A DNA stretch of 64,000 bases from Falsiroseomonas stagni DSM 19981 (GTDB taxonomy: Bacteria > Pseudomonadota > Alphaproteobacteria > Acetobacterales > Acetobacteraceae): assembly GCF_900114315.1 (NCBI RefSeq), contig NZ_FOSQ01000001.1, positions 474,202 to 538,201 of the forward strand, read 5' to 3'. Below, piece by piece: positions 8,811 to 14,137 of this stretch. The first letter of the stretch is position 1; each line of letters starts with the position of its first letter. A model generated the notes under the pieces. That model made no database searches. It was given only the letters and a program-made list of their open reading frames with translations, and was not told the DNA's origin. The position numbers were made by a program, and so were the translations under genes.

Positions 8811-8865
8811 CGCTGGTCTCCGTCAGAAGGGGAACCGCCTGCGCGGCTCCCCCCTGCGCGACTCA

Positions 8866-8963
8866 GAGCCTGTGAAAGAATCGAGCTTGAGCATTAATGT
8901 CCGTTGAAATCATTGGTCTTTTTCCTCGGATTCCGGCGCTTTCGGGCATTAATTCACAAGCTC
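8866..8963. mobile_element. 98-bp MITE, copy 1 (TNA target site duplication)
   Basis: An AT-richer 98-bp element with imperfect terminal inverted repeats GAGCCTGTGAA / TTCACAAGCTC. It is flanked on both sides by TCA (8863-8865 and 8964-8966), a 3-bp target duplication of TNA type as made by some IS5-family transposases. A second copy at 13008-13105 differs at only two positions. No transposase is encoded, so it must be mobilised in trans. The right-hand TCA is the TGA stop codon of phbB on the minus strand, so the insertion left the phbB protein intact. Confidence 0.85.
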
Positions 8964-9686
8964 TCAATACATGTGCTGGCCGCCGTTGATGGACAGCGTG
9001 GAGCCGGTGATGAAGTCGGCCTCGTCCGCCGTCAGGAAGGCGACGCCGCGCGCGATGTCCTGCGCGGTGCCGAGGCGCCCGCGCGGGATGCGCGCGATGA
9101 TCTTCTCCAGCACGTCGGCGGGGACGGCGCGCACCATCTCCGTGTCCACATAGCCGGGCGCTACCGCGTTCACCGTGACCTGGTTGCGCGCGCCTTCCTG
9201 GGCCAGCGCCTTGGTGAAGCCGTGGATGCCGGACTTGGCGGCGGCGTAGTTCACCTGGCCGAGCTGCCCGGCCTGGCCGTTGACGGAGCCGATATTGACG
9301 ATGCGGCCGAACTTCCGGCTGCTCATCCCGTCCCACACGGCCTTGCACATGTTGTAGCAGCTGCCGAGGTTCGTATCGATGACGTCGTCCCACATCTGGC
9401 GCGTCAGCTTGCGCATCATCGCGTCGCGCGTGATGCCGGCGTTGTTCACCAGGACCTCGACGGGACCGACCTCGGCCTCGATCTTCTGCACGGCGGCGAC
9501 GCAGGCGTCGTAGTCGCCGACATCGAACTTGTAGCAGGGGATGCCGGTGCGCTCGGTGAAGGCCTGTGCGGCCGCGTCGTTGCCGGCGTAGGAGGCGACG
9601 ACCTTGCGGCCGGCGGCCTGCAGCGCCTCGCTGATCGCGGCGCCAATGCCACGCTGCCCACCCGTCACCAATGCTACACGTGCCAT
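8964..9686 (-). CDS. phbB: Acetoacetyl-CoA reductase
   Basis: PhbB reduces acetoacetyl-CoA to (R)-3-hydroxybutyryl-CoA with NADPH, supplying monomers for polyhydroxybutyrate. The 240-residue SDR has the cofactor motif TGGQRGIG at residues 8-15, NNAGITRD, the catalytic Ser in VNIGSVNGQ and the Tyr/Lys pair in NYAAAKSG, plus the diagnostic end ITGSTLSINGGQHMY. The ATG at 9686 is chosen over longer starts because a GGGAGAG ribosome binding site precedes it. No phaA or phaC is in the window. The stop codon is the target site of a MITE. Confidence 0.95.
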   Translation of the reverse strand: MARVALVTGGQRGIGAAISEALQAAGRKVVASYAGNDAAAQAFTERTGIPCYKFDVGDYDACVAAVQKIEAEVGPVEVLVNNAGITRDAMMRKLTRQMWDDVIDTNLGSCYNMCKAVWDGMSSRKFGRIVNIGSVNGQAGQLGQVNYAAAKSGIHGFTKALAQEGARNQVTVNAVAPGYVDTEMVRAVPADVLEKIIARIPRGRLGTAQDIARGVAFLTADEADFITGSTLSINGGQHMY

Positions 9687-9834
9687 GCGGCTCTCCCACC
9701 CTGTTGTCGCGGCGCCTGCGGCGCCATCGGCTTCCCTGCATGCCGCCCGGCCGGGGCCCGGCGGCACGCCCCCATCCTCGCGCGCCGGGCGGCGGAGAGC
9801 AAACAGGCATCGCGATCCGCCCGCGCAATCCGGT

Positions 9835-9876
9835 TTGATTCACATCAAGGCGCCCCCGGCGGCATGGCCCTAGCAT
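9835..9876 (+). promoter_or_regulatory. FNR-type site and -10 element (candidate class II promoter)
   Basis: TTGATTCACATCAA at 9835-9848 is a perfect FNR/FixK-type palindrome (TTGAT-N4-ATCAA), centred at 9841.5. A -10-like hexamer TAGCAT lies at 9871-9876. This places a start near 9882-9884 and the palindrome at about -41.5, the standard class II activator position. The site would be bound by an oxygen- or redox-responsive Crp/Fnr regulator. It lies in a 303-bp gap between phbB (minus strand) and a glycosyltransferase-like gene (plus strand), so it might also affect phbB. Confidence 0.6.
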
Positions 9877-9882
9877 CCCTCC

Positions 9883-9972
9883 TGTCCCGAGGCGCCTCGA
9901 CGTGCCGCACGGACGTTCCTGGACGTTTCCTCCCTGAACTGAGCCCCGGCGGGTGACCGTCGGGGATTTTTT
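9883..9972 (+). ncRNA. Candidate FNR-activated small RNA with anti-Shine-Dalgarno motif
   Basis: From the predicted start near 9883 to the terminator T run at 9972 is about 90 nt without a convincing coding frame. The RNA would hold a 12-nt palindrome (CGAGGCGCCTCG, 9888-9899), two near copies of GGACGTTCCT (9911-9931), a single-stranded CCTCCC at 9929-9934 and a strong intrinsic terminator. Anti-SD CCUCC motifs next to a terminator are typical of trans-acting sRNAs in alphaproteobacteria. Alternatives are a leader and attenuator for the downstream gene, with a possible 11-codon GTG-started peptide at 9902-9937. Confidence 0.5.
9944..9972 (+). terminator. Strong Rho-independent terminator
   Basis: An 8-bp stem (CCCCGGCG at 9944-9951 with CGTCGGGG at 9958-9965, one G-T wobble) and a 6-nt loop are followed by ATTTTTT. 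No protein-coding gene on the plus strand lies upstream within this gap, which is the main reason to suspect a short RNA gene. It lies 17 bp before the start of the glycosyltransferase-like gene. Confidence 0.8.
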
Positions 9973-9989: not shown

Positions 9990-10973
9990 ATGTGGCATGA
10001 ACGCCTCCCCAGCGCCGAGCCACCCTTGCCGCCCCCCATCGCCATCCTGGCCTTCGACCGGCCGCACTACCTGAAGCCGGTCCTGGAATCACTGCTCGCC
10101 CAGCGCGGTGCCTCCCTCCGGCAGCACCGGGTGTTCCTGTTCCAGGATGGGGCGCGCAACCGCTACAGCGGCGCCTGGCGCGGCGACCCCGCCGCCATCG
10201 CCGAAAGCACCGCCCTGTTCCGCGCCCTGGTGCCCTGGGGGGAGGTCGTGCCGGCCGGGGACAATATCGGCGTTGCGGAGAACGTGCTGCGCGCGGAGCG
10301 CGTGGTCTTCGAGGACCTGGCCGAGCCCATCGCCTGGTTCTTCGAGGACGATCTCCTCCTGCATCCCGACTACCTGCGCAACCTGGCGCATCTGTCCGCC
10401 ATGGCGCTGGCGGAGGAGGCGATCGGCTATGTGAGTTGCGTGGGCGACCATGTGGCCCCCCTGGCGGTGCAGCGCGCCCGCCAAGCCGATTTGGTGCCCA
10501 TGGCGATGAACTGGGCCTTCGGGCTGACGCGCCGGCACTGGCAGGCGATGCAGCCCCTGCTGGAGCCCTTCCATGCCGCGGTGCTGGGGCAGGACTACGC
10601 GGCCAGGTCCACGGCGGCGATCATCGGCGCCTGCCAGGCGGCGGGACTGCCCGTGCATTCCTCCTCCCAGGACAATGCCAGGCGGGTCGCCACCTGCGTG
10701 CTGGGGCGCAATGCCCTCAACAGCGTCGTGGTCCTGGGGCGCTACATCGGGGAGGCCGGGCTGCACATGACACCCGCGATGTTCCGGGAGCGTCGCTATG
10801 GCGCGGCGCGCTGGCTGAAGCGCGTGGAGCCGGCATTCGTCTGCCCGGACCCGGCTGCGCTGGCGGCGATGCGGGCGGCGGTGATGGCCAAGCAGGTGGA
10901 GCGGGCCGCCGCCGCCGCCGCGCGGCTCTTCCCTGCCGCCAGCGCCATCCCGGCGCCCCCGGCGCGGCTGTAG
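9990..10973 (+). CDS. Glycosyltransferase-like protein (GT13/GNT-I-like)
   Basis: A 327-residue protein. The N-terminus (PPIAILAFDRPHYLKPVLESL) is a nucleotide-sugar-binding beta strand and helix. IAWFFEDDLLLHPDYLRNL carries an EDD motif like the metal-binding site of GNT-I family transferases. An Ala-rich helix ends the protein. There is no signal peptide or membrane segment. The acceptor is unknown. The gene follows a strong terminator by 17 bp, so it needs its own promoter or readthrough. Confidence 0.65.
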   Translation: MWHERLPSAEPPLPPPIAILAFDRPHYLKPVLESLLAQRGASLRQHRVFLFQDGARNRYSGAWRGDPAAIAESTALFRALVPWGEVVPAGDNIGVAENVLRAERVVFEDLAEPIAWFFEDDLLLHPDYLRNLAHLSAMALAEEAIGYVSCVGDHVAPLAVQRARQADLVPMAMNWAFGLTRRHWQAMQPLLEPFHAAVLGQDYAARSTAAIIGACQAAGLPVHSSSQDNARRVATCVLGRNALNSVVVLGRYIGEAGLHMTPAMFRERRYGAARWLKRVEPAFVCPDPAALAAMRAAVMAKQVERAAAAAARLFPAASAIPAPPARL

Positions 10974-11095: not shown

Positions 11096-11281
11096 ATGCA
11101 GACCCCGCTGCCTGCCCCCTCCGATGGCGACAAGACCGATCAGGCTGCCATCATGTTGATGCTGGCCTATGTCGAGGCGGAATGCCGACGCCTGGGCGCC
11201 GATGCCGCGGCGCGATACGCGGCCATGGCGGCGTCGCTGCTGCCTGGCCGGGGCGCTCCCCCGGGGTCGACCCTGCACTGA
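11096..11281 (+). CDS. Small hypothetical protein
   Basis: A 61-residue protein from ATG 11096, with an AGGA about 10 bp upstream. The middle is a predicted amphipathic helix (QAAIMLMLAYVEAECRRLG) followed by AARYAAMAASLL. No known domain is recognised. It has an upstream palindrome and a downstream hairpin followed by ATTT, so it may be a monocistronic unit. Confidence 0.55.
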   Translation: MQTPLPAPSDGDKTDQAAIMLMLAYVEAECRRLGADAAARYAAMAASLLPGRGAPPGSTLH

Positions 11282-12978: not shown

Positions 12979-13007
12979 CGTGGGGTTCCTCGGCTGGCCT
13001 GGCGTCA

Positions 13008-13105
13008 GAGCCTGTGAAAGAATCGAGCTTGAGCATTAATGCCCGTTGAAATCATTGGTCTTTTTTCTCGGATTCCGGCGCTTTCGGGCATTAATTCACA
13101 AGCTC
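13008..13105. mobile_element. 98-bp MITE, copy 2 (TNA target site duplication)
   Basis: This copy matches the one at 8866-8963 at 96 of 98 positions and lies in the same orientation. It has the same terminal inverted repeats and is flanked by TCA at 13005-13007 and 13106-13108. Inside, ATTAATGCCCG and CGGGCATTAAT form a perfect 11-bp inverted repeat; copy 1 has one mismatch there. The right-hand TCA is the TGA stop codon of the NMT1-type receptor gene, so that protein is unchanged. Confidence 0.85.
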
Positions 13106-14137
13106 TCAGCTCGTCACCACCAGGCGGCGATCGGCGGCCGGCGGCAGGAAGGCGTCGGTGTAGACATCCTCCGGCTTCAGCTTCGGCGCCATGCCATAGG
13201 CTTCCTCCACCGCCGTGAGCCCCAGCTGGAAGCGGGAAGGCACCACGGAGGACAGGCCGTTCGCCATCACATGGTCGGAGACGATCTGCTCCCGCAGCGA
13301 GACCTGCTGGCGCTCCGCCTCGATCGCGACATCGGTCAGCGGCTCCGCCGCCTTCAGCGCGGCGATGCAGCCGGCGGGATCGCGATGCGCTTCCCGCAGC
13401 GACCGGATGCCGCCGGCGACGACGGCGCGGACCAGTTCCGGGTTGCGCCGCGCATAGTCGCGCGTGGTCAGCCAGCAGGTGCCGTACAGCGGCAGGCCGT
13501 AGTCCCGGTACCAGAGGATGCGCTGCTGCGGCCAATCCATGCCGAGCGCCTTCAGAGACATGCCCGTGCTGGTGGCGGCGCCGGTGATGCCATCGGCCCG
13601 GCGCTGCACCAGCATCGGCTCCCGCAGTTCCGGGCGCACCGTCAGCCAGTTGACCTTGGATGCATCGAAGCCGGCGGCGCGGGCGAAGGCGGGGAAGATC
13701 TGGCGGCCGGCGTCGCTGTCGGGCGCGGCCAGGGTCCGACCCTCGAAATCCTTCGGCGCGCGGATCGGCCCTTCCTCCCGCACCGTGGCGCAGAGCAGGC
13801 TGCGGTCGCCGAAGACGCCGACCACGACCAGGCCGGCATTCGGGTTCTCCGCGATGAACTTGATGACGGGGTTTATGTCCGCCTGGGCGATTTCATAGGC
13901 GCCACCCGCCACATCGATGGGCACGCGGCCCGATCCGAAGCCGCGGTCGATCTGCAGGTCGATGCCGGCGTCGCGGAAGAATCCCTTCTCCCGCCCGTAG
14001 AGCATGAAGGCGTTCGGGCCCTGGAAGGCCCAGTCCACCTGGTATTTCACGCGCGGCAGGGCCTGGGCGCGAAGGGTGGCGGGGGCGGCGACCAGGCTGG
14101 CGGCGGCAAGGCCAAGGGCACGGCGGGTGATCGGCAT
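13106..14137 (-). CDS. ABC-type solute-binding protein, NMT1/SsuA/ThiY-like
   Basis: A 343-residue periplasmic receptor. The N-terminus (MPITRRALGLAAASLVAAP) is a Tat-like signal peptide with a twin Arg, cleaved near ATLRAQA. The mature part begins with KYQVDWAFQGPNAFMLYGREKGFF, typical of NMT1 receptors for thiamine precursors, sulfonates or nitriles. No ABC permease or ATPase is encoded nearby. The ATG at 14137 has a GGAGA ribosome binding site. The gene ends at a MITE insertion. Confidence 0.85.
   Translation of the reverse strand: MPITRRALGLAAASLVAAPATLRAQALPRVKYQVDWAFQGPNAFMLYGREKGFFRDAGIDLQIDRGFGSGRVPIDVAGGAYEIAQADINPVIKFIAENPNAGLVVVGVFGDRSLLCATVREEGPIRAPKDFEGRTLAAPDSDAGRQIFPAFARAAGFDASKVNWLTVRPELREPMLVQRRADGITGAATSTGMSLKALGMDWPQQRILWYRDYGLPLYGTCWLTTRDYARRNPELVRAVVAGGIRSLREAHRDPAGCIAALKAAEPLTDVAIEAERQQVSLREQIVSDHVMANGLSSVVPSRFQLGLTAVEEAYGMAPKLKPEDVYTDAFLPPAADRRLVVTS

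Follow-up and report, generated by a model that had tools for sequence, protein, structure and literature searches.

The window, by which we mean the whole stretch of 64,000 nucleotides that was analysed, contains a short intergenic region between a phbB gene and an open frame at 9990-10973. A predicted small RNA gene lies in this region, with the following features at and around it.

8964-9686, minus strand: phbB, acetoacetyl-CoA reductase (TIGR01829 above cut-off), the divergent neighbour
9774-9804, minus strand: conserved block that stands apart from the FNR box, mean identity 0.83, possibly the phbB promoter
9835-9848, no strand assigned: FNR/FixK-type palindrome TTGATTCACATCAA, centre 9841.5, 41.5 bp before the predicted start
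9871-9876, plus strand: −10 element TAGCAT, start predicted at 9883
9883-9972, plus strand: predicted small RNA of about 90 nt, alpha-r8/MmgR family (RF00519 match, orthologues, model R1)
9884-9914, plus strand: 5′ two-helix domain, GUCC/GGAC closing and an inner GC-rich hairpin, paired in 10 out of 10 sequences
9911-9935, plus strand: 25-nt core GGACGTTCCTGGACGTTTCCTCCCT, identical in 10 out of 10 orthologues
9926-9935, plus strand: anti-Shine-Dalgarno seed UUUCCUCCCU, the alpha-r8 10-mer (DNA TTTCCTCCCT), invariant in 10 out of 10
9944-9972, plus strand: intrinsic terminator, 9-bp stem at 9944-9965, then A and a T tract at 9967-9972

The original prediction of an FNR-activated small RNA at this place was checked against the sequence. 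The palindrome at 9835-9848 is perfect and centred at −41.5, and the TAGCAT box and the predicted start at 9883 are positioned as described. A class II FNR/FixK promoter consists of TTGATnnnnATCAA centred near −41.5 plus a −10 box, and this is the arrangement found at the locus, with TAnnnT at the −10 place in 9 out of the 10 aligned orthologous loci (the exception is L006). A generic sigma-70 scan detected no promoter at the locus. The palindrome is the only perfect TTGATnnnnATCAA site in the window, in which three sites with at most one mismatch to the FNR box were observed compared to 0.32 expected, and seven perfect sites occur in the 6.38 Mb of the genome (sequence as assembled). Two of the other six perfect boxes precede an oxidase subunit I gene (PF00115, COX1-type), which we take to be ccoN, and a universal stress protein gene. 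As ccoN-type oxidase and universal stress protein genes are typical FNR/FixK targets, the motif probably is a working FNR/FixK site in this genome. We infer that the promoter is FNR-activated at low oxygen.

The strong intrinsic terminator is likewise present (stem 9944-9965, A, and six T ending at 9972); the scanned 2 kb contain two terminator-like sites compared to a mean of 0.5 in shuffled sequence. The CCUCCC described as complementary to Shine-Dalgarno sequences is found as CCTCCC at 9929-9934, inside TTTCCTCCCT, and the repeat noticed in the RNA consists of GGACGTTCCT (9911-9920) followed by the near-repeat GGACGTTTCCT (9921-9931). If the window RNA is folded alone, it performs modestly better than its shuffles (z −1.9, 9 out of 200 as good). 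Over the ten orthologues 24 predicted pairs are kept in all 240 cells, and two pairs, both among the five inner pairs of the 5′ domain, are changed on both sides. The covariation of the whole structure is equalled by 9 out of 500 shuffles, a supportive but modest backing of the predicted fold. In alpha-r8 RNAs the 10-mer is single-stranded and stands behind a weak hairpin; in the predicted fold helices do come before it, but its UCC may be weakly base-paired to a GGA.

A protein-coding RNA was considered and rejected, no reading frame being conserved across the ten orthologues: four of them have no frame longer than five codons and the remaining frames differ, in agreement with the earlier statement that a convincing coding frame is missing. 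The name “glycosyltransferase” given to the frame at 9990-10973 found no support, as no Pfam match was obtained up to E 0.1. We further report a 104-nt direct repeat (8863-8966 and 13005-13108, 98% identical), one copy of which lies directly downstream of phbB; it may be a small intergenic element that is mobile or repeated.

Conservation and RNA family

A DNA search of 15 genomes of the genus (Falsiroseomonas/Roseomonas) returned 11 with a match, one of which (L012 in G008) is a different alpha-r8 copy without the box. The RNA gene itself is carried by 10 out of the 15 genomes, the source genome included. Named records with the same pattern are Falsiroseomonas bella, F. algicola, Roseomonas ponticola, Roseomonas sp. 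MO-31 and AR75 and three MAGs, and they point to the genus assignment used here.

Box, leader, core and terminator are common to all ten genus loci. The mean column identity is 0.98 and 1.0 in the two half-sites (9 out of 10 columns invariant) and 0.60 in the box interior, where the four inner bases vary; it is 0.58 in the spacer from the box to the −10 element, 0.67 in the −10 region, 0.79 in the 5′ domain, 1.0 in the 25-nt core (25 out of 25 columns) and 0.90 in the terminator. The centre of the box lies 42.5 nt from the conserved GTCC in eight loci and 41.5 nt in two. Since box, spacing, core and terminator persist in all ten loci against an average of 0.58 in the spacer, this comparison of sequences rules out chance, and 9883-9972 is by the same comparison a conserved gene of a predicted sRNA. 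The homology check set beforehand thus came out in favour of the RNA: palindrome, CCUCCC and terminator are conserved, and none of the other nine copies was found with the downstream frame next to it.

In Rfam the stretch 9908-9980 matches RF00519 (suhB; “Makes More Granules Regulator RNA, mmgR”) with 31.6 bits and E 4.6e-5, below the gathering score of 41; no Rfam family reaches its gathering score in the window. The family matches all ten genus orthologues, two of them above gathering (L005 with 45.9 and L011 with 43.1), furthermore 5 out of 5 loci of a second genus, g16 (one above gathering), and 4 out of 4 examined loci of g58 (three above). One must keep in mind that 13 out of 14 control genomes also match at E ≤1, one of them over the cut-off, so that a weak RF00519 score alone is insufficient. 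Further support comes from model R1, which was built solely from the ten orthologues and recovers alpha-r8 loci of other genera and of the source genome (E-values 2.3e-8 for L030, 4.4e-8 for L024 and 9.5e-7 for the own copy L043).

The 10-mer UUUCCUCCCU is given as the hallmark of alpha-R8 RNAs in PMC12559287. The Rho-independent terminator shortly past the core, a feature of the family, is present; the linkage to an FGase gene, usual and not obligatory, is absent here, the neighbour being phbB. By core, terminator and covariance models the predicted RNA is a divergent alpha-r8 (MmgR/suhB, RF00519) sRNA, a family that the original prediction had not recognised. RF00519 was found in 127 of the 150 genomes sampled from the bacterial family. 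In another genus of this family three alpha-r8 copies stand in tandem within 600 bp (L016, G112:C4:165025-165614).

Promoter sites, distribution and regulator

Besides the window copy the source genome holds three RF00519 copies above gathering, and all four bear the 10-mer. One of them, L043, adjoins the FGase gene, the usual alpha-r8 neighbour according to PMC12559287. A separate match, L045 (G000:C27:348895-348983), scores 31.7 bits, as strong as the window copy, and is without TTTCCTCCCT; it is either a chance match or a degenerate copy.

In Sinorhizobium meliloti PhaR/AniA is described to bind a palindrome in the mmgR promoter, and the core of this palindrome, TTGTGCAnnGCAGCA, was used as query (PMC12542648). 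Such a palindrome is a trait of regulation and does not define the RNA. Among the copies of the source genome, L041 and L043 have the motif without a mismatch. A further 29 loci of the bacterial family, taken from the top-scoring RF00519 matches and as such a biased sample, comprise 31 sites, one 10-mer too close to the edge of L029 being left out of the count. The motif is perfect at 12 out of the 31 and has at most two mismatches at 19 out of the 31; at 3 of these 19 the distance to the 10-mer is about 90 nt instead of about 50. The motif is absent (5 or 6 mismatches) at 10 out of 10 genus orthologues, 5 out of 5 g16 and 5 out of 5 g58 copies, and shows four mismatches at the single Labrenzia copy as well as at the third own copy, L044. 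The window copy, judged by these motifs, has an FNR-type site where its siblings L041 and L043 have a PhaR/AniA-type palindrome. As L044 fits neither promoter type, with neither a good PhaR-type nor an FNR site, this two-signal picture is incomplete.

A screen for 10-mers preceded at a distance of 60 to 90 nt by an FNR-type box gave 15 out of 397 genomes of the bacterial family: 8 out of 13 in the source genus (G007 and G010 were not in the draw), 5 out of 6 in g58, 1 out of 6 in g16 and one match of g74 (L072), which was judged by eye to be chance. A reversed-pattern control gave 0 among the matches listed. A class-wide arrangement was rejected, the source genome itself being the one match among 385 genomes of the class. 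A stricter pattern in a collection of 84,980 species gave 14 stretches, namely eight of the source genus, four of the g58 type, one of Labrenzia sp. OB1 and one chance match (the Entotheonella stretch L085, judged by eye). The stretch from Labrenzia sp. OB1 (L076, 5199-5306), outside the source bacterial family, contains an alpha-r8-like gene whose 10-mer is preceded at 98 nt by a perfect FNR-type palindrome, a longer distance that points to another promoter geometry.

The gene phbB is divergent from the RNA in all ten genus loci (90 to 100% identity) and in the g16 genome G215. Six g16 genomes were queried, and phbB was found in five of them, not in G173. In all five an alpha-r8 copy lies upstream of phbB, with the 10-mer exact in four and one change in G119; the box TTGAn6TCAA is intact in two and has one half-site mismatch in three. 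Five congeners (G004, G008, G012, G013 and G014) have phbB with neither 10-mer nor box in the 700 bp upstream and without a match to the RNA model. Given the phbB-linked copies in g16 and these five congeners without them, the phbB-linked unit seems to be older than the genus and to have disappeared from some of its members. The g58 copies have a different leader and no phbB in the flanks examined, and therefore look independent.

Which protein would act at the palindrome is less clear than the site. The motif CxxCx7C is typical of FNR, and a protein with this motif, the FNR orthologue, has orthologues of more than 70% identity in 7 out of the 15 genus genomes, all of them carriers of the RNA gene. 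Weaker relatives were all that was found in the carriers G002, G003 and G009 and in the five non-carriers. Among the named species, the F. algicola type (G001) has the FNR orthologue, whereas in the F. bella type (G002) it was not found. In the source genome the FNR gene (L087, G000:C30, approximately 553475-554263) contains in the draft assembly an in-frame stop between the sensor and the DNA-binding halves, where six congeners have an uninterrupted frame. A second Fnr-like protein (L088 type) occurs in 14 out of the 15 genomes, non-carriers included; the single G013 locus examined gave no match. With no recognisable orthologue found in three of ten carriers, a stop in the source copy and this second protein nearly throughout, the regulator is an FNR-type protein of uncertain identity.

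It is conceivable, though we think it unlikely, that the RNA is real and answers to the L088-type protein, perhaps to a signal other than low oxygen. This protein is present in the three carriers without an FNR orthologue, has CAAC near its N-terminus and keeps a Glu and an Arg in the likely recognition helix. Against it, L088-type proteins also occur in non-carriers, whereas the FNR orthologue is confined to carriers (7 out of 10 compared to 0 out of 5; p 0.026 by Fisher's test without correction for relatedness).

An improbable reading takes the palindrome as the control site of the divergent phbB through an FNR-type regulator and gives the RNA an independent promoter. In its favor, phbB is divergent in all ten loci with its start codon about 150 bp from the box, and in Bradyrhizobium FixK2 is placed in a cascade with PhaR (PMC12542648). 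However, the spacing from the box to the RNA start is constant within 1 nt in all ten loci, whereas towards phbB the 35 bp next to the box have a mean identity of 0.58, and phbB has another conserved block closer to its own start. Moreover, the 700 bp upstream of phbB contain neither the box nor the RNA in five congeners, and in g58 an alpha-r8 gene with an FNR-type box was found with no phbB in the flanks examined.

Possible targets and relation to known systems

We consider it likely that 9883-9972 encodes a trans-acting alpha-r8/MmgR paralogue of about 90 nt that is activated by an FNR-type protein at low oxygen and represses several mRNAs through its seed, with siblings that share the seed and differ in the signal. 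At low oxygen the regulator would activate the promoter from its class II site at −41.5, and the RNA would be transcribed up to the Rho-independent terminator. The seed UUUCCUCCCU would then pair, probably on Hfq, with Shine-Dalgarno regions and block ribosome binding, so that translation of several mRNAs, perhaps of transport genes, would be repressed. The siblings L041 and L043 with their PhaR/AniA-type site would put the same seed under a different signal.

To look for candidate targets in silico we counted GGGAGGAAA located 2 to 10 nt before an ATG, which occurs 16 times (at 15 places) in the genome compared to once for the reversed pattern. Nine of the 15 places open frames of at least 100 amino acids: five TctC-type receptors, a LivH-like permease, an enoyl-CoA hydratase, a CBS protein and one without a Pfam match. 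The TctC receptors, the permease and the CBS protein are the foremost candidate targets. Five TctC genes out of nine are above expectation (approximately 1e-5 if TctC accounts for 248 of an assumed 6,000 genes), while TctC genes may simply favor this form of the Shine-Dalgarno sequence. The duplex ranks of the nine frames are circular, as the frames were picked by the seed, and the seed is common to all four siblings. As a separate observation, the genome has a large expansion of TctC-type solute receptor genes, at least 150 among 248 candidates.

The suggestion that the RNA acts directly on PHB metabolism next door is unsupported by the pairing, and phbB was rejected as a direct target: the duplex with its start region is unremarkable, ranking 39 of 200 shuffles in the window. 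With the window RNA used for all calculations, the ranks extend from 15 to 112 of 200 across the ten genus loci; three out of five g16 loci rank at 4 to 6, and among the non-carriers one ranks at 13 and the others at 49 to 171. MmgR-like control of PHB would act by repressing phasins or other PHB genes; no PHB gene was recognised among the nine frames of at least 100 amino acids with GGGAGGAAA before the ATG. A link to PHB is suggested by the adjacency of phbB and, by analogy, by the role of the family in S. meliloti.

It would be surprising if competition with the other alpha-r8 RNAs of the genome for Hfq, or for a sponge RNA common to them, were the main mode of action instead of pairing with mRNAs of its own. 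Sponging is described for the family in Caulobacter, where CrfA sequesters SisA-D (PMC12559287); the RNA carries the seed of the siblings and so is able to pair with mRNAs itself. Hardly credible is the earlier alternative of an attenuator or leader of the frame 9990-10973: the RNA lies directly upstream of it with the terminator in between, but a search of the flanks of the other nine copies (at least 1.5 kb downstream each) did not find the frame there, and the core matches a free-standing sRNA family whose seed works in trans. In the same region a 61-aa frame (11096-11281, VEAECRRLGA...) has relatives directly beside phbB in congeners without the RNA. Here it lies beyond 9990-10973, and the stretch between was thus gained or lost.

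The trans-acting alpha-r8 RNA, our preferred reading, may be compared with two further kinds of sRNA. FnrS of Escherichia coli, too, is an sRNA with an FNR site and acts as a repressor on several mRNAs; it belongs to other bacteria and has another seed, no match to its family was obtained from Rfam in the window, and the likeness is one of analogy. The CcsR sRNAs of Rhodobacter bear a CCUCC motif, as does this alphaproteobacterial RNA; the alpha-r8 match already explains this motif. Most likely the RNA is the low-oxygen sibling in the alpha-r8 set, blocking, as its seed would predict, ribosome binding on several mRNAs.

More tentatively, and with somewhat more doubt than belief, we propose that alpha-r8 sRNAs were captured by FNR-type promoters more than once, in Falsiroseomonas and g16 beside phbB, separately in g58 and possibly in Labrenzia sp. 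OB1. This would give alphaproteobacteria their own counterpart of FnrS, and in Falsiroseomonas one seed would be split between PHB-state (PhaR) and oxygen (FNR) signals, and carbon storage would be connected to oxygen supply through translation.

The closest known system is MmgR of S. meliloti (alpha-r8, RF00519 suhB), with the same seed UUUCCUCCCU, a strong terminator and a PHB context. MmgR is reported to have 77 nt and to be regulated by NtrC (positively) and by AniA/PhaR (negatively), with a PhaR-bound promoter palindrome (PMC8401924, PMC12542648). In contrast, the RNA described here has an FNR-type site in place of the PhaR palindrome, an extra GC-rich 5′ hairpin and phbB as neighbour. 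No report of FNR-type control of an alpha-r8 RNA, nor of an oxygen-responsive one, was found in the open-access literature searched, including the available parts of PMC12559287, PMC8401924, PMC12542648, PMC7143759 and PMC11475020, and the original MmgR papers of 2016 to 2018 may hold an earlier mention; a search for Falsiroseomonas and polyhydroxybutyrate in the open-access literature gave only unrelated work. If our reading is true, it would tie an alpha-r8 RNA to low oxygen.

Several alpha-r8 siblings per genome with unrelated promoters are likewise described for SisA-D of Caulobacter crescentus, where SisA represses mRNAs through the 10-mer, with Hfq (PMC12559287). For sisA-D no shared promoter motif is reported in the main text of that paper, which does not mention FixK, FixLJ, hypoxia or oxygen, and its authors left open whether the siblings are redundant or independent. 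The siblings reported here can be told apart by their promoter sites, which are PhaR-type on two and FNR-type on one, and would thus provide the means for a direct test of redundancy.
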